DNA of 40,507 nt, taken from the NCBI GenBank assembly GCA_021782315.1, contig JAJXVG010000003.1, positions 16,267 through 56,773 on the forward strand. Reading direction: 5' to 3'. Position numbers and translations under genes: made by a program. Of this stretch, positions 6,953 to 39,704 are shown piece by piece (position 1 is the stretch's first letter; every line of letters starts with the position of its first letter). The DNA comes from Pseudomonadota bacterium. GTDB lineage: Bacteria > Pseudomonadota > Gammaproteobacteria > Burkholderiales > Rhodocyclaceae. The notes under the pieces were generated by a model. That model did no database searches. It had not been told where the DNA came from and saw only the letters and a list, made by a program, of their open reading frames with translations.

Positions 6953-7028
6953 GGGTCGGTAGCTCAGTCGGTAGAGCAGCGGACTTTTAATCCGTTGGTC
7001 CCGAGTTCGAATCTCGGCCGACCCACCA
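6953..7028 (+). tRNA. tRNA-Lys (anticodon TTT)
   Basis: GGGTCGGTAGCTCAG...GGACTTTTAATCC...GGTTCGAATC-type T-arm, encoded CCA; acceptor GGGTCGG/CCGACCC. Confidence 0.96.
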
Positions 7029-7044
7029 GCCTTTTTGGAAATGT

Positions 7045-7120
7045 GGGGCGCTAGCTCAGTTGGTAGAGCAGCGGACTCTTAATCCGTAGGTCGACAGTTC
7101 GAATCTGTCGCGCCCCACCA
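7045..7120 (+). tRNA. tRNA-Lys (anticodon CTT)
   Basis: GGGGCGCTAGCTCAG...GGACTCTTAATCC...GTTCGAATC..., acceptor GGGGCGC/GCGCCCC, encoded CCA. Confidence 0.95.
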
Positions 7121-17012: not shown

Positions 17013-17825
17013 ATGTCGCTCGCCTGGAACCTGAAAATCCTGATCAGTACGCTTCTCCTGCCGCCCGGCAACGGCCTGCTGCTCATCGCCCTGGCCGGCG
17101 CCTGGCGCCGTCGGCGCTGGGCCTTCGCCCTGGCCGCCTGCGGCGGTGCCCTGCTCCTGGCGCAAAGCCTGCCCTTCGTGGCCGGCCGGCTGATCGCCAC
17201 CCTGGAAGAACAGAATCCGCCGCTCGCGACGACGCGGCCGGCGGCCGACGCCATCGTCATTCTCGGCAGCGGCCTGCTCACCGCCGCCGCGGAATACGGC
17301 GGCGACACGGCCAACGAACGCACCCTGCTCCGCACCCGTTACGGCGCCACCCTGGCCCGCCGCTACGGCTTGCCGGTGCTGGTCAGCGGCGGGCGCCTGC
17401 CGCCAACCCGCCGCACCGAAGCCGAGGTCATGGCCGGCATCCTGCAGGACGAATTTGGCGTGGCCGTCCGCTGGCAGGAAGCGGCTTCAATGGACACTGC
17501 CGAAAATGCGGTCTTTTCGGCCGCCATGCTCAAGGCCGCCGGCATCCGGCGCGTCCTCCTCGTCACCCAGGCCTTCCACATGCCGCGCGCCCGACGGTTT
17601 TTCGAACAGGCCGGACTGACGGTGGTTCCGGCCCCCACCGCCTTCGCCGGCCGACCCGGAACAAGCTGGCAGTTCGCCGATTTCCTGCCCCAGGCCGCCG
17701 CCCTGCACAGGTCGTATTACGCCCTGCACGAATGGCTGGGGCTGGCCTGGATGGCACTGAGCCCAAAACGATGCGGCCAGTTCAGCGGCGTCTGTCCACC
17801 GGAAAATCCGGATACCCGACCGTAG
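17013..17825 (+). CDS. YdcF/ElyC/SanA-like DUF218 membrane protein
   Basis: 'AIVILGSGLLTAAAEYGG...NERTLLRTRYGATLARRYGLPVLVSGGRLPPTRRTEAEVMAGIL...SMDTAENAVFSAAMLKAAGIRRVLLVTQAFHMPRARRFFEQAG'. Confidence 0.9.
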   Translation: MSLAWNLKILISTLLLPPGNGLLLIALAGAWRRRRWAFALAACGGALLLAQSLPFVAGRLIATLEEQNPPLATTRPAADAIVILGSGLLTAAAEYGGDTANERTLLRTRYGATLARRYGLPVLVSGGRLPPTRRTEAEVMAGILQDEFGVAVRWQEAASMDTAENAVFSAAMLKAAGIRRVLLVTQAFHMPRARRFFEQAGLTVVPAPTAFAGRPGTSWQFADFLPQAAALHRSYYALHEWLGLAWMALSPKRCGQFSGVCPPENPDTRP

Positions 17826-17833
17826 CGCCCGCC

Positions 17834-18886
17834 ATGCATCTCTTCGTCGACATTTCCAGCCACGGCTTCGGCCACCTCGCGATCACGGCGCCTGTCCTCA
17901 ACGCGCTGGCCAAGGCCTGTCCGGATTTCCGCCTGACGGTCAGAAGCGCGCTGCCGGCCGCCATGCTGCGGCAACGGATCGTGGTTCCCCATGAGATCAT
18001 TCCCGCCGCCAGCGATTTCGGCTACATCATGGTCGACGCCACCCGCATCGACCTGGCGGCGAGTGCCGCCGCCTATCGCCGGGCACATGGCGACTGGCCG
18101 ACCCGGGTCGCCGCCGAAGCGCGTTTCCTGGCCGGACTCGATCCCGACCTTGTGTTGACCAGCGTCAGCTACCTGCCGCTGGCAGGGGCGGCCGTGGCCG
18201 GTATTCCGGCCTGCAGCCTGTGTTCGCTGAACTGGGCCGATCTCTTTGCCCATTTTTTCGGCGACAAGCCCTGGGCCGGGCCCATCCATGCCGAAATGCT
18301 CGCCGCCTACCGTTCGGCCCGCAGCTTCCTCCGCGTCACCCCGGGCATGGCCATGGGCGATCTGGGCAATGTCACGCCGCTCGGACCGATCGCGGCATTG
18401 GGCACAAGACAGGACCTCGCTCTCAAGGGCGACAAGGCGGTCATGGTCGCCATGGGCGGTATCGCCCACCGTCTGCCGGTCGAAGACTGGCCGCGCCTGC
18501 CCGGCATACGCTGGCTGTTGCCTGCCGCCTGGAACTGCCGGCATCCGGATGCCATCGCCTGGGAATCCTTCGGCCTCGGTTTTACCGATCTGCTCTCCTC
18601 GGTCGATGCCATCGTCACCAAACCCGGTTACGGCACCTTCACCGAAGCCGCCTGCAACGGCATCCCGGGCATTTACCAGCGACGCGAGGACTGGCCGGAA
18701 CAGGACTGCCTGATCGACTGGCTGAACTGCCACGGCGCCTGTCTCGAAATCGCCCCCTCGGCACTGACCGTCGGCTTGACTTCAAATGATCTTGACAACG
18801 TTCTAAACCGTGTCGTTTCGCCACGCCCGGAAGCAAATGGCATCGATGGAGCCGCCCAAGCCATTCTTTGCCATGCCAATGCATAA
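17834..18886 (+). CDS. GT-B fold glycosyltransferase-like protein (MurG/GT28-like)
   Basis: N-term 'MHLFVDISSHGFGHLAITAPVLNALAKACPDFRLTVRS'; C-term 'LLSSVDAIVTKPGYGTFTEAACNGIPGIYQRREDWPEQ' donor-binding-like loop. Confidence 0.75.
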   Translation: MHLFVDISSHGFGHLAITAPVLNALAKACPDFRLTVRSALPAAMLRQRIVVPHEIIPAASDFGYIMVDATRIDLAASAAAYRRAHGDWPTRVAAEARFLAGLDPDLVLTSVSYLPLAGAAVAGIPACSLCSLNWADLFAHFFGDKPWAGPIHAEMLAAYRSARSFLRVTPGMAMGDLGNVTPLGPIAALGTRQDLALKGDKAVMVAMGGIAHRLPVEDWPRLPGIRWLLPAAWNCRHPDAIAWESFGLGFTDLLSSVDAIVTKPGYGTFTEAACNGIPGIYQRREDWPEQDCLIDWLNCHGACLEIAPSALTVGLTSNDLDNVLNRVVSPRPEANGIDGAAQAILCHANA

Positions 18887-18921
18887 ATATTTACCTGACA
18901 AGCGCCCTTAAATCCCCCATT

Positions 18922-18941
18922 TTGTGCGGGATTTGGCACAA
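18922..18941. promoter_or_regulatory. Short inverted repeat at NRPS gene start
   Basis: TTGTGC-GGGATTTG-GCACAA immediately before the ATG at 18948. Confidence 0.35.
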
Positions 18942-18947
18942 TTCGGC

Positions 18948-21900
18948 ATGCCTGAAATTAGTCCCATGCCCGCCCTGCCCAGCCGCCTGTGCGGCCCGGA
19001 AACCCCCGATCTCATTCGCAACGAAGTACTGGCCGACCTCTTCGAGGCCACTGCGGCTCGAATACCCGAAAAAATCGCACTGATTTTCGCCGAACGCGAA
19101 CTCAGCTACACCCAGCTCAACGCTGCCGCCGACCGTGTCGCCTCCCGTCTGATCGCCGCCGGCGTGCGGCCCGGTCAGATCGTCGGCCTCTGGCTGCCGC
19201 GCGGCATCGACCTGCTCGTCATGCAGCTCGGCATCGCCAAGAGTGGCGCCGCCTGGCTGCCCTTCGACGCCGACACGCCGGTCGACCGCATCAAGGTCTG
19301 CCTCGACGATGCCGACGGCGCCGGCCTGGTCACCGTCGCCGACATCGGCGCTCTCGGCCGCCGCTGCTGGCTCGCCGCCGACCTCCTGGCGCCCCACCCC
19401 GAGCCGCTCCTGCGCCGCCGGGACAGCGCCCCGACCGACCCGGCCTATGTCATCTACACCTCCGGCTCGACCGGCAAGCCCAAGGGCATCCTGATCAACC
19501 AGGGCGCCATCTGCCACTTCCTGCGCAGCGAAAACGCCGTTCTCGGCATCGCCGAGGAGGACCGGGTCTACCAGGGCTTCTCGGTCGCCTTCGACATGTC
19601 CTTCGAGGAAATCTGGATCAGCTATCTGGTCGGCGCCACGCTCTGGCTCGCCCCCAGGGAGGTTGCCACCGACCCCGAGGCGCTGCCCGCCGCCCTGATC
19701 GACAACCGGGTCAGCGTGCTGCACGCCGTGCCGACACTGCTCGCCCTGTTCACTTGCGACGTGCCCGGCCTGCGCCTCATCAACCTCGGCGGCGAAGCCT
19801 GCCCGCAGGCCATCGTCGAACGCTGGGCCCGGCCCGGCCGCCGGGTGTTCAACACCTACGGGCCGACCGAGGCCACGGTCTCGGCCAGCCTGGCCGAACT
19901 GCAGCCCGGCCAGCCGGTGACCATCGGCCGGCCGCTGCCCAATTACGGCCTGCTGGTCATCGACGCCGCGGTCGAAAACGGCCTGCGCCTGCTGCCCCAA
20001 GGCGAAACGGGCGAACTCTGCATCACCGGCCCGGGCGTCGCCGCCGGCTATCTCGGCCGCCCCGACCTGACGGCCGAAAAATTCCTCGCCAACCCTTGGC
20101 CGACCAGCGGGCACGAGAGCCGCCTGTACCGCACCGGCGACCTCGCCCGCATCGACGAACAGGGGCAGATTCATTGTCTGGGACGCACCGACGACCAGGT
20201 CAAGATTCGCGGCTTTCGTGTCGAACTGGGCGAAATCGAAGCCGCCCTGACCCGCCAGCCGGGCGTCGGCACCGCCGCCGTCATCCTCCGCCAGGATGAA
20301 GGCATCGAACGTCTGGTCGCCTATCTCATCGCCGATTCCGGCGAAGCGACCTCCAGCCCGGCACTGCGCGGTGCCTTGGTAGCGGCCCTGCCGCCCTACA
20401 TGGTGCCTTCGCATTTCGAAATGCTGGATGAAATGCCGCGCCTGACCTCGGGCAAGATCGACCGCAAGGCCCTGCGCACCCGCCCCCTGGAACTGCCGGC
20501 GGGCGCCCCCGGCGATTCGGACAGCCCCGAGACCCCGGCCGAGGAAATCCTTTTTGCCGCGCTGGCCCGCCTTTTCCCCGGCCAGGTGATCAGGCGCGAG
20601 GCCGATTTCTTTACCGATCTCGGCGGGCACTCCCTGTTTGCCGCTCGCCTCGCCTCCTCGCTGCGCCAGGAAGCTCGCTTCGCCGGTTTTTCGGTGCGCG
20701 ACATCTACGTCCACCGCCGCATCGGCCTGATCGCCGAAGCGCTAGGCGCCACGGCCGAAGTAAGCTTCGATGCCGGCGCCAGCGAATGGTTGCCGCCGCC
20801 GGCCCATAGACGCTGGCTGTGCGCCATCGCCCAGGCTTTCGTCCTGCCGCCGCTGGTCGGCCTGCGCATGGGTCAGTGGCTGGCTCCCTTCTTCACCTAC
20901 CATTATTTCACCGGCGATCCGGACGACTCGATCCCTCTTGCGGTAGCCATCTCGGTTAGCGTTTTCCTGGTCGCCACCCTGCTCAGCTTCATTTTCGCCA
21001 TTCTCGGCAAATGGCTGATCGCCGGCCGACTGAAAGCGGGCAGCTACCCGCTGTGGGGCCTGACCTATTTTCGCTGGTGGTGCGCCAGCCGGTTGATCGA
21101 AGGTGCTCCGGCATACATGTTGAGCAACTCGCCGCTCAACATCTGGTGGCTGCGCGCACTGGGCGCGCGAATCGGCAACGAGACGATCATCGGCAACGTC
21201 ACCCTGCGGGCCCACGACCTGCTCGATGTCGGCAACGGTGTCAGTATCGGCAATGCAGTGAATCTCGAGAACGCCCGGGTCGAACGGGGCCAGCTCCACC
21301 TCGGCCCGATCGGGCTGGCGGACGATGTCTGCATCGGCTCCTACGCGGTGCTCGAAGGCCACACGGCAATGGACCGCTACGCGCACCTGGAAGCCCAATC
21401 GGCCCTTGGCGAAGGGCTGGCCATTCCGCCACGGCGGATATGGCTCGGCTCGCCGGCACGCGATGTCGGGGAGTTCGACCCCGCCTCCGTCCCACCCCGG
21501 CCGGAGGTCTCGGAAACCCGCCTGGCGCGCGAAGGCCTGTTTTACGTTTTGGGCATGCTGGCGACCGCCGCCCTGTTTTTCATGCCGGTTTTCCCGAGTT
21601 TCATGCTGGTCGACTGGCTGGACAACGAACCCAACTCCCTCCCCTTCCCCCTGCAACTGTTCAAGTACTTCGCCCTGGCCTTCCCCGGCACGGCGGTGCT
21701 CATCGTCGGCACCATCCTCAGTTCGGCCATCCTGCGCTGGACCCTGATGCCCAGGTTGCAGGCCGGCAGCTGGCCGGTCCACAGCCGCGTCTATTGCAGC
21801 CGCTGGCTGGTCAACCAGATCCAGGAATCCAGCCTGAACATCCTGCACGGCATCTACGCGACGGTTTACGCGCCCTTCTGGTATCGCCTGCTCGGCGCCA

Positions 21901-22934
21901 AGGTCGGCCGCGACGCGGAAATCTCGACCGCCCAGGGGTTGGTTCCCGACCTCCTGACGCTGGGCGACGAAACCTTCATCGCCGACGCCGTAATGCTCGG
22001 TGACGAGGAGGTCGATGCCGGCTGGATGACGCTCAAACCGACGGTCATCTCGCGGCGCAGCTTCGTCGGCAACGGCGCCTACATCCCGGACGGCACCGTG
22101 CTACCGGAAAACGTGCTGATCGGCGTCCAGTCGAGGGCGCCGGCCAACGAACGCATTAAGTCCGGCGATACCTGGCTCGGCTCCCCACCGATCAATCTGC
22201 CGGCCCGCGAGCAAACGGCCGGCTACCCGGAAGCGCTCACCTTCCGCCCCTCCCGGCTACGTCGCCTCGGTCGCGCCCTGGTCGAAGCCTTCCGCATCAT
22301 TTCGCCGCACGCGCTGGTCATCGCCGTCGGCTACACCGTCGTCCTCAACGTCATGCCGCTCACCGATGCCGGCCGCTGGCAGGATGTCTTCACCTTGCTG
22401 AGCGTGGCCGGCGTCCTTTTCGGCATCAGTACCATCGTATTTGTCGCCGTGCTCAAATGGCTGTGCATCCGGCGCTACAAGAAACACTCGGTGCCGATGT
22501 GGACCCCTTTCGTCTGGACCTCGGAGGCCATCACCAGCCTTTATGTCGGCATGGCCGTGCCCAACCTGATGAATTACCTGCGCGGCACCCCCTGGTTGCC
22601 GGTCGCCCTCAACCTGCTGGGTTGTCGTATCGGTCGCGGCGTTTATCTCGATACCACCGATGTCACCGAATTCGATTGTGTCCGGATCGGCGACTACAGC
22701 GAACTCAACGGCCTGGCCTGCCCGCAGACCCATCTCTTCGAAGACCGCGTCATGAAAATAGACATGGTCAGCATCGGCAAGCGGGTTTACGTCGGCCCGA
22801 GGACGACGGTGCTGTACGGCGCCGTGGTCGGCGACAATGTGCGCCTCGGCCCCCTGTCGCTGGTCATGAAGGGGGAAAGCCTGCCGGCCGGCTCGCGCTG
22901 GCACGGTTGCCCGGCCGCTCCGGCCGTCCGCTGA
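18948..22934 (+). CDS. Pls/PosA-family non-ribosomal peptide synthetase: adenylation domain - PCP - polytopic membrane module with three LbH (hexapeptide-repeat-like) blocks
   Basis: A3 'VIYTSGSTGKPKGIL', A5 'NTYGPTEATVSAS', A8 'GRTDDQVKIRGFRVELGEIEAAL', A10 'SGKIDRKAL', PCP 'DFFTDLGGHSLFAARLAS'; then three TM-pair + LbH repeats (e.g. 'LGARIGNETIIGNVTLRAHDLLDVGNGVSIGNAVNLENARV'). No canonical C or TE domain. GTG at 18924 and ATG at 18966 are alternative starts. Confidence 0.93.
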   Translation: MPEISPMPALPSRLCGPETPDLIRNEVLADLFEATAARIPEKIALIFAERELSYTQLNAAADRVASRLIAAGVRPGQIVGLWLPRGIDLLVMQLGIAKSGAAWLPFDADTPVDRIKVCLDDADGAGLVTVADIGALGRRCWLAADLLAPHPEPLLRRRDSAPTDPAYVIYTSGSTGKPKGILINQGAICHFLRSENAVLGIAEEDRVYQGFSVAFDMSFEEIWISYLVGATLWLAPREVATDPEALPAALIDNRVSVLHAVPTLLALFTCDVPGLRLINLGGEACPQAIVERWARPGRRVFNTYGPTEATVSASLAELQPGQPVTIGRPLPNYGLLVIDAAVENGLRLLPQGETGELCITGPGVAAGYLGRPDLTAEKFLANPWPTSGHESRLYRTGDLARIDEQGQIHCLGRTDDQVKIRGFRVELGEIEAALTRQPGVGTAAVILRQDEGIERLVAYLIADSGEATSSPALRGALVAALPPYMVPSHFEMLDEMPRLTSGKIDRKALRTRPLELPAGAPGDSDSPETPAEEILFAALARLFPGQVIRREADFFTDLGGHSLFAARLASSLRQEARFAGFSVRDIYVHRRIGLIAEALGATAEVSFDAGASEWLPPPAHRRWLCAIAQAFVLPPLVGLRMGQWLAPFFTYHYFTGDPDDSIPLAVAISVSVFLVATLLSFIFAILGKWLIAGRLKAGSYPLWGLTYFRWWCASRLIEGAPAYMLSNSPLNIWWLRALGARIGNETIIGNVTLRAHDLLDVGNGVSIGNAVNLENARVERGQLHLGPIGLADDVCIGSYAVLEGHTAMDRYAHLEAQSALGEGLAIPPRRIWLGSPARDVGEFDPASVPPRPEVSETRLAREGLFYVLGMLATAALFFMPVFPSFMLVDWLDNEPNSLPFPLQLFKYFALAFPGTAVLIVGTILSSAILRWTLMPRLQAGSWPVHSRVYCSRWLVNQIQESSLNILHGIYATVYAPFWYRLLGAKVGRDAEISTAQGLVPDLLTLGDETFIADAVMLGDEEVDAGWMTLKPTVISRRSFVGNGAYIPDGTVLPENVLIGVQSRAPANERIKSGDTWLGSPPINLPAREQTAGYPEALTFRPSRLRRLGRALVEAFRIISPHALVIAVGYTVVLNVMPLTDAGRWQDVFTLLSVAGVLFGISTIVFVAVLKWLCIRRYKKHSVPMWTPFVWTSEAITSLYVGMAVPNLMNYLRGTPWLPVALNLLGCRIGRGVYLDTTDVTEFDCVRIGDYSELNGLACPQTHLFEDRVMKIDMVSIGKRVYVGPRTTVLYGAVVGDNVRLGPLSLVMKGESLPAGSRWHGCPAAPAVR

Positions 22935-22935
22935 G

Positions 22936-23523
22936 ATGACGATTGAGCCGCTGCCGGTTCCGCGCTGGCCGGCTTGCCGTGATCCGGGCCGGGATCTGCT
23001 GGTCGTCGCCGTCGATACGCCGGACAGCGCCATGCGCGATGTGGCCCGCCGACTGGTGCGCGCCGTCCTGCGTGAAATCCTCGGCCCCCTCGAATTCGTT
23101 TCCCGCCCCGGCCAAGCCATTCGTCCGGTCAATCGGGAAAGCCCGGTCGGCATTTCAGTCAGTCACGAAAACGAATGTTCGCTGGTCGCGGTGAATTTCT
23201 CGGGCCCGGTCGGCGTCGATCTGCTGCGCCTGCCAGACCGGCCGGACTGGCAGGCTGAAATTCCGGCCCTGGCCGAAACCTATCTCGGCCCGGGCGACGC
23301 AAGGGAAATCGCCGGCCGGCCGTCGCATGAACGGGTGGCCTGTTTTGCCCGTGCCTGGACCCGGCACGAAGCCCGCCTCAAATGCCGTGGCCTCGGCCTG
23401 GAGGAGTGGGGCGCCGCTCTGGAGGAGCTGTTGTCACCCTGCCGCGTCCGACCGCTGCTGCTGCCAGCCGGTTACGTCGGCGCCGTCGCCACCCTCAGAG
23501 TGGCCGAAATCCCAGCTCTTTGA
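22936..23523 (+). CDS. 4'-phosphopantetheinyl transferase superfamily protein
   Basis: 'VGISVSHENECSLVAVNFSGPVGVDLLRL' and 'CFARAWTRHEARLKCRGLGLEEW' match Sfp-type P1/P2/P3 motifs; starts 1 nt after NRPS stop (TGAGATG). Confidence 0.87.
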   Translation: MTIEPLPVPRWPACRDPGRDLLVVAVDTPDSAMRDVARRLVRAVLREILGPLEFVSRPGQAIRPVNRESPVGISVSHENECSLVAVNFSGPVGVDLLRLPDRPDWQAEIPALAETYLGPGDAREIAGRPSHERVACFARAWTRHEARLKCRGLGLEEWGAALEELLSPCRVRPLLLPAGYVGAVATLRVAEIPAL

Positions 23524-37081: not shown

Positions 37082-37607
37082 AACGGCAGCGGCCGTCGTC
37101 TTCCAGGCAGACCTGAAGCCGGCCGGCAAAGGGAATACGAAGGCTCCCCCACTCCCTGGCGGCCAGTTGCCGCCAGTGGGCGACCAGCACGCGGATCACC
37201 CCGGCATGGGTGACGACGACCGCCTCCGGCACAGCCAGCCCGGCGACGAAGGCCAGGGCCCGCCCCTGCACGGCACTCGGCGATTCCCCGCCCGGCGGCG
37301 CATAACCGGCCACATCGGCGGCCCAGGCATCCAGTTCGTGTCGCGGAATGGCATCCCATGCCATGCCCTCCCAATCGCCGAAATTCATTTCGGCCAGGCG
37401 TTCATCGATAGCCGGCCCGGGATGGAGCAGTTCCGCCAGTTGCCGGCAACGCCGCAACGGACTGCTCCACACCGGCAGACCGGGCGGCAGCTCGGCCCGC
37501 AAAGCGTCCGCCGCCGACCTGTCGAGGTCGGCCGGAACATCGAGTCGACCGTAGCAGATCCCCGCTTCGATCAGGGGCGGCGGATGACGGACCAGATGCA
37601 GGATCAC
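37071..37607 (-). CDS. cobC: Histidine phosphatase family, alpha-ribazole phosphatase-like
   Basis: '[61 protein letters not shown]...EMNFGDWEGMAWDAI'; in cob operon. Confidence 0.88.
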   Translation of the reverse strand: MILHLVRHPPPLIEAGICYGRLDVPADLDRSAADALRAELPPGLPVWSSPLRRCRQLAELLHPGPAIDERLAEMNFGDWEGMAWDAIPRHELDAWAADVAGYAPPGGESPSAVQGRALAFVAGLAVPEAVVVTHAGVIRVLVAHWRQLAAREWGSLRIPFAGRLQVCLEDDGRCRFIH

Positions 37608-38365
37608 CGCGGTCCGCTGGCCAGAAGACCGAGGTAGAAAGCGATCTCGCTCAGTTGCTGCGTCGCCCCCAGGCAGTCACCCGTATAACCGCCCAGCCAG
37701 CGCCTGAACAGGCCGGCCAGCCAGAGCGTGGACAAAGCGGCCAGCGCGCAGCCGAGCAGCGCCTTTTCGGGCGGCAGGAAGGCCAGCGCGGCGACCGGGC
37801 CAAGCAGGGCGAAAAGCAGGCTGCCTCCGGTGAGTCGGGTGGCCAGCGGCTTCGCCTTGGCGAGCGCGTCCTCGCGCACGTAATCCATCGTCGCCAGCAA
37901 GATCGTGGCGCAAAGGCGCGACAAGGCATGACCGGCCAGCAGGGCGACGGGCAGCAGGGCGGCGTCCAGCGCCGAGAGCAGCGTGAACTTGCCGAGCAGC
38001 GCCAGGCCCAGCGCGATTACGCCATAGCTGCCGACCCGCGAATCCTTCATGATTTCCAGGATACGCAGCTTTTCCCAACCGCCGCCGAGGCCGTCGGCGG
38101 TATCCGACAGGCCGTCCTCGTGAAAAGCGCCCGTCGCAAGAATGGTCGCCGCCATCGACAGCAGCACGGCCACGGCCTGCGGCCAGAACTGCGTGGCGCC
38201 GAGAAAAACCAGGCCGCCGATGGCGCCGACGATCAGCCCGACCACCGGAAAATAGCGGGCCGAGCGATTCAGCGCCTGGCTCGAATGTCCGACCCAGGCG
38301 GGCACCGGCAGACGTGTGAAGAAACGGACGGCGCCGAAAAAGCACGCCAGTTCGCGGCGGATCAT
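37604..38365 (-). CDS. cobS: Adenosylcobinamide-GDP ribazoletransferase
   Basis: '[26 protein letters not shown]...[20 protein letters not shown]...[41 protein letters not shown]'. Confidence 0.97.
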
Positions 38366-39414
38366 TCCTTCTCGGAAACGCCAGCCGACTCGAAACTGGC
38401 CATTTCGTTGAGGAAGTTCAGGGCGGATTGAACCAACGGGAAGGCCAGCGCCGCTCCGGTCCCTTCGCCCAGCCGCAAACCGAGATCGAGCAGGGGCTCG
38501 GCGCCGAGACCCCGCAATTGCGCGGCATGACCCGGTTCGGCCGAACGATGGCAGAAAACGCAATACTCGGTCAGCGCCGGCGCCAGCCGGGCGGCGGTCA
38601 GGGCGGCGGAACCGACGATGAAACCGTCGATGAGCAGGGTCATCTTCGCCGCCGCCGCACCCAGCATGGCGCCGACCATCATGGCCATTTCGAAACCGCC
38701 GAATTCGGCGAGCACGGCCAGCGGCTCGTTGTCGCCACCGGCGGAGCGATAACGCTGCAACGCGCTTTCCAGCAGCGCCTGCTTGCGGACCAGGCCGGCA
38801 TCGTCGAGCCCGGTGCCGCGACCGATGCATTCGGCCAGCGGCGTGCCGGTCAGGCAGTGGGTGATCAGCGAGGCTGCCGCCGTGTTGCCTATCCCCATTT
38901 CACCAAAACCCACTACATTGCAGCCGGCCGCCGCCAGCTTGCGGCTGATTTCGGCACCGCGCGCGACGGCCTGCGCGCATTGCCCGGCGCTCATCGCCGC
39001 GGTCTCGATGTAATTGGCCGTACCGGCCGCAATCTTGGCGTCGACCAAACCGGCTCGTTTGCCGAAATCGTGCGCCACGCCGGCATCGACAATGGTCAGC
39101 TGCAAGCCGTTCTGGCGCGCGAAAACGTTGATCGCCGCACCGCCGGCCAGGAAATTCTCGACCATCTGCCAGGTCACATCCTGCGGGTAGGCCGAAACCC
39201 CGGCCCGGGCGGCGCCGTGATCGCCGGCAAAAACCAGCAGTTGCGGCTGGCTGAAGGCCGGTTCGAGGCGTTGCTGGATCAGGCCGATCTTCAGGGCCGT
39301 ACGTTCAAGCAGGCCAAGCGCGCCGAGCGGCTTGGTCTTGCGGTCGATCTTGGTCCGCAGCGAATTTTCAATGCCCCGGTCGGGGGCGGCGATAACGAAG
39401 TCCAACGAATGCAT
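38362..39414 (-). CDS. cobT: Nicotinate-nucleotide-dimethylbenzimidazole phosphoribosyltransferase
   Basis: '[30 protein letters not shown]', '[57 protein letters not shown]', '[22 protein letters not shown]'. Confidence 0.97.
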
Positions 39415-39423
39415 CCGATTCTC

Positions 39424-39488
39424 CAAAAAGAAAAAGGGCTCCGCGACGAGACTTGGCGAAACCATCGCCAAAGCCGGTCGCGAAACCC
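39424..39488 (-). terminator. Intrinsic terminator between riboswitch aptamer and cobT RBS (expression platform)
   Basis: Minus strand: GGGTTTCGCGAC...(inner CTTTGGCGA/TTCGCCAAG)...GTCGCGGAGCCC-TTTTTCTTTTT; 12-bp stem including two G-U pairs, T-tract 39435-39425. Confidence 0.8.
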
Positions 39489-39508
39489 TGTCCACAGGCT
39501 TCCCAAGA

Positions 39509-39651
39509 GGATTCGACACGTCTTCTGGCTTTCGGATCAGCCGGATTGCCGCGCCTTCCCGGCTCTCACCAGTGGCTTGCTGCGGCATCCGTTCCCGATT
39601 ACAGCGGCGGGCCCGCCCCGGATTCACACCGGGTTCCGTTTCGTCGAATCG
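39509..39651 (-). ncRNA. Cobalamin (B12) riboswitch
   Basis: Minus strand: GATTCGAC...CCCGGTGTGAATCCGGGGCGGGCCCGCCGCTGTAATCGG...GCCACTGG...AGCCGGGAAGGCG...GCCAGAAGACGTGTCGAATC; perfect 8-bp P1 and B12-box; upstream of cobT. Confidence 0.93.
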
Positions 39652-39704
39652 GGACGAATTATCCGACTTGCCGGGACGGTGCGCAATCACCTACAGTGCC
39701 GGAC

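Follow-up and report, generated by a model that had tools for sequence, protein, structure and literature searches.

A PosA-type NRPS-like synthetase and its adjacent phosphopantetheinyl transferase in a Rhodocyclaceae genome, with a predicted short poly-L-ornithine product

Genes and features of the locus

The window, by which we mean the whole stretch of 40,507 nucleotides that was analyzed, contains four forward-strand genes, encoding a DUF218 (YdcF/ElyC-like) membrane protein (17013..17825; PF02698, 120 bits), a GT-B fold glycosyltransferase/epimerase-like protein (GT; 17834..18886), assigned from its predicted structure, a Pls/PosA-family NRPS-like synthetase of 1328 aa with an adenylation (A) domain, a PCP and a membrane polymerization domain (18948..22934; TIGR02353 and TIGR01733), and a 4'-phosphopantetheinyl transferase (PPTase) of the Sfp/ACPS superfamily (22936..23523), identified by PF01648, synteny and conserved motifs. 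The gaps between them are 8, 61 and 1 nt, and the arrangement of four same-strand genes with short gaps described in an earlier note on this DNA was thus confirmed.

Two start codons were considered for the synthetase, ATG at 18948 and GTG at 18924. The ATG is kept in the related loci L006-L009 and is preferred as the probable start, while the GTG, missing from several of these loci, was ruled out for its lack of conservation. A 22-nt block, GGATTTGGCACAATTCGGCATG, at 18929-18950 runs into this start codon and is near-invariant in the window and in L006-L009; it has no second occurrence in the genome when as many as three mismatches are allowed, and is missing from L010-L012. The block is a possible regulatory element, and a sigma-54 promoter was rejected on inspection because the spacing is off by one and the GG is lost in L007. 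Elsewhere in the window, a cobalamin riboswitch (39498-39663, reverse strand) lies upstream of two genes that share its strand, one CobT-like (38362-39690) and the other CobS (37604-38830), and a tandem tRNA-Lys pair with anticodons TTT and CTT is located at 6953-7120.

Architecture and predicted product of the synthetase

Profile searches placed the synthetase well within TIGR02353 (812 bits, cut-off 423), with a full-length match covering model positions 2-695 of 695, and gave a TIGR01733 match of 399 bits. The A domain (19041..20456, forward strand) was delimited with PF00501, PF13193 and an alignment to the PDB 8g95 chain, its AMP-binding domain scoring 240 bits. The PCP was recognized by the motif DLGGHSL, and a motif search of the translation placed the 4'-phosphopantetheine attachment motif LGGHSL at 20619..20636 (+). 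Domain and motif searches identified this single A domain and PCP without a C or TE domain, and a profile search of the genome, which is 89% complete, detected no condensation domain (PF00668) in the synthetase or elsewhere. The remainder of the protein is the membrane polymerization domain (20829..22916, +; TIGR02353, residues 636-1331), in which hydropathy analysis resolved six hydrophobic segments arranged as three pairs in the C-terminal half of the protein, within residues 624-697, 862-935 and 1110-1177. Between these helix pairs lie left-handed beta-helix segments (Hexapep PF00132 and a weak LbH match); a structure model of this domain reached a pLDDT of 60, a low confidence that is too weak for a fold search. 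Taken together, the TIGR02353 score, the LGGHSL motif and the three helix pairs bear out the earlier reading of a Pls-type layout, an A domain, PCP and polytopic C-terminal module lacking condensation and thioesterase domains, and the locus belongs to the known Pls/PosA family rather than to a new pathway.

The nearest solved chains to the synthetase are PDB 8G95-8G98, the A domain of PosA from Acinetobacter baumannii, with which the A core shares 247 of 395 residues (63%). At PosA positions 217, 218, 221, 260, 280, 304, 312 and 313 the synthetase carries D M E H N T V S, with no difference from PosA at any of the eight. This code is common to 79 of 81 synthetases (the window and its 80 nearest loci), the remaining two differing only by Thr304Ser; the comparison loci are nearest matches by design and the count therefore describes the clade, not the family. 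The more distant class members L157, L158, L160 and L161 have the codes DLEDISVV, DFECIAVT, DAESITVI and DAESITII, respectively, and since these substrate codes differ, other polymers are likely there.

PosA of A. baumannii makes delta-poly-L-ornithine, of 7-12 units in vitro; D217A and E221A abolish its activity, T304A and S313A lower it, and Met218 tunes substrate size, with M218A raising lysine use (PMC10522769). The combination of 63% A-core identity to PosA and the same eight code residues makes short delta-linked poly-ornithine the best prediction for the product, although the substrate code alone would be no proof that ornithine is the substrate. The earlier proposal of a cationic or other isopeptide homopolymer or short oligomer accordingly holds in its general chemistry: a cationic isopeptide homo-oligomer is likely, and the eight-residue code identity narrows the proposal to ornithine of the PosA type.

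An alternative to this prediction is an enzyme of the same class using a different cationic monomer (lysine, diaminobutyrate or an arginine-like residue) or making a mixed oligomer. PosA itself modestly activates lysine, and homologues with divergent codes prefer other substrates (PMC10522769); set against this, the full match to the PosA code includes the size-limiting Met218, at which position lysine enzymes have Ala and Dap/Dab enzymes Phe, and we regard a different or mixed monomer as unlikely.

The PPTase and the neighboring genes

The PPTase exceeds the PF01648 cut-off (34.9 against 25 bits). Its S-x-SH, G-x-D and W-x-x-x-EA-x-x-K motifs are conserved, the latter two in 45-46 of 46 relatives, and it has a His at the usual Lys position of the W-x-x-K-E-A motif. 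Although it sits in one unit with the synthetase, the PPTase has changed far more quickly: its identity to a given set of relatives is 51-58%, where the synthetase keeps 88%.

Examination of the window and 80 relatives showed a PPTase of the same subgroup directly 3' of the synthetase on the same strand in 62 of 81 loci, in agreement with the earlier suggestion of a dedicated PPTase. The other 19 (Collimonas, several Undibacterium and others) have no adjacent PPTase, though the contig had room for one; considered together with PosA, a single-gene unit activated by added Sfp, these loci show that the pairing of synthetase and PPTase is not obligatory. The gene content of the window's genome points in the same direction as the synteny. 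Only one A domain in this 89% complete assembly passes the TIGR01733 cut-off, a profile search of the same assembly found no other NRPS, and only two ACPS-family genes were present, the second of which matches nearly the whole model and is presumably AcpS. Because the genome is 89% complete, a further PPTase or NRPS could be missing from the assembly, and this content may be taken as suggestive rather than final support for the pairing. On this combined evidence the PPTase is the probable dedicated partner of the synthetase and, among its neighbors, appears to be the only real one.

The GT and DUF218 genes follow a different pattern. No Pfam family reached threshold for the GT gene; a comparison of its predicted structure (mean pLDDT 72) with known folds gave matches to GT-B glycosyltransferases as well as UDP-GlcNAc 2-epimerases (TM about 0.6, best E 3e-11), which indicate a fold and not a function. 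The earlier note had joined all four genes into one pathway, in which the GT and the DUF218 protein would add sugars to the polymer or attach it to the envelope. The common strand and short gaps favor such a unit, as does the position of the GT directly upstream of the synthetase in six Azonexaceae-type loci (L006-L010 and L012), the only ones within L006-L085 where the two adjoin. Across 151 genomes of the same family, however, GT matches (E up to 0.001; one of them, in G121, over 47 residues only) occur in 45 and a synthetase over cut-off in six (G000, G007, G074, G087, G094 and G125), with both in only two, G000 and G125, and on different contigs in the latter. In the same-genus genomes G112 and G062, and in G003 (L116-L118), maf and rlmH come after the GT with no synthetase, and the adjacency of GT and maf without a synthetase recurs in more distant members of the family.

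One of these junctions retains a trace of the pair. The short gap between GT and maf in L116, the locus of G112, holds a 3' PPTase remnant at about 1384-1486, where the synthetase and the bulk of the PPTase gene are gone. The scrap is 56% identical over 36 residues to the end of the L006 PPTase (tblastn E 1e-7) and ends in the same ...YVGAVATKAA stop; the gap DNA aligns to L006 with a score of 56, where 300 shuffles reached no more than 23, and gave no alignment above chance with the other relatives. The persistence of this scrap indicates that the synthetase-PPTase pair was once present in G112 and was then deleted, the GT surviving, and it rules out the junction as a never-occupied site.

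The DUF218 gene is absent from most loci and lies near the synthetase only in L007 and L009 among the relatives L006-L085, the contigs of L006 and L008 stopping too early to show it. In both L007 and L009 an enoyl-CoA hydratase separates it from the GT. At this position the window lacks the hydratase, of which a 92% identical copy lies on another contig, and since the gene present in the relatives is missing here, the tight spacing of DUF218 and GT reflects a local rearrangement. Thus the neighborhood survey gave a divided answer on the four genes, which rarely co-occur as far as the GT and DUF218 are concerned, in contrast to the frequent presence of the PPTase. Judged from synteny, the GT and the DUF218 gene are chromosomal neighbors and no part of the pathway; the co-occurrence counts and the deletion scar speak against a glycosylated or envelope-linked polymer, which was rejected, and we consider a four-gene pathway very improbable. 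The GT-B protein stands apart from the pair in most genomes, and there is similarly little chance that it was recruited in Azonexaceae to decorate the ornithine oligomer; if true, such decoration would yield a kind of glycosylated cationic isopeptide that has yet to be described.

Interpretation and comparison with known systems

We consider it likely that the synthetase and its own PPTase form a two-gene unit, predicted to make short delta-linked poly-L-ornithine. In this scheme the PPTase would load 4'-phosphopantetheine onto the serine of LGGHSL, and the A domain would adenylate L-ornithine and then load it onto the PCP. The bases shown here are domain content, code identity, purifying selection, co-conservation of the PPTase and, in one relative, a deletion that removed both genes but left the flanks intact; the substrate, linkage and chain length of the product are inferred from PosA. 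Work on PosA points to antifungal activity or an effect on biofilms, and by analogy either may be a role for the oligomer. A decaying or unexpressed locus, for which the patchy distribution and the deletion in same-genus G112 might speak, has very little probability given a full-length, stop-free synthetase frame and a dN of 0.07-0.08 against a dS of 0.53-0.67 relative to L006, L007 and L009 (dN/dS 0.11-0.14), ratios by which the synthetase is under purifying selection.

These results locate the PosA-type enzyme for poly-ornithine across a wide range of Beta- and Gammaproteobacteria, remove a misleading inference of glycosylation drawn from neighboring genes, and provide a simple pair of genes that can be expressed together and used to probe the role of the oligomer in environmental bacteria. 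Most loci bring their own PPTase, where the founding PosA study used added Sfp. In open-licence papers we found no description of frequent PPTase linkage to PosA-type synthetases, and nothing on PPTase-linked poly-lysine synthetases or on poly-ornithine in pseudomonads; the frequently linked PPTase is a useful addition to the picture of the PosA-type family.

With the Sfp, AcpT and HetI types of PPTase the window enzyme has in common the ACPS-superfamily domain and the S-x-SH, G-x-D and W...EA..K motifs; it falls below the AcpT and HetI equivalog cut-offs, and its subgroup is the one linked to the synthetase. Pls, the epsilon-poly-L-lysine synthetase of Streptomyces albulus (A domain PDB 7WEW), shares the TIGR02353 family and overall layout with the window synthetase, but has Ala where the latter and PosA have Met, and its A-domain score is far lower (268 bits, compared with 538 bits for PosA). 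PosA of A. baumannii has the same A-PCP-membrane layout and the same three pairs of membrane helices; it differs in that its operon consists of one gene and that Sfp was supplied for its activation in vitro, whereas the window synthetase has a PPTase gene 1 nt downstream.
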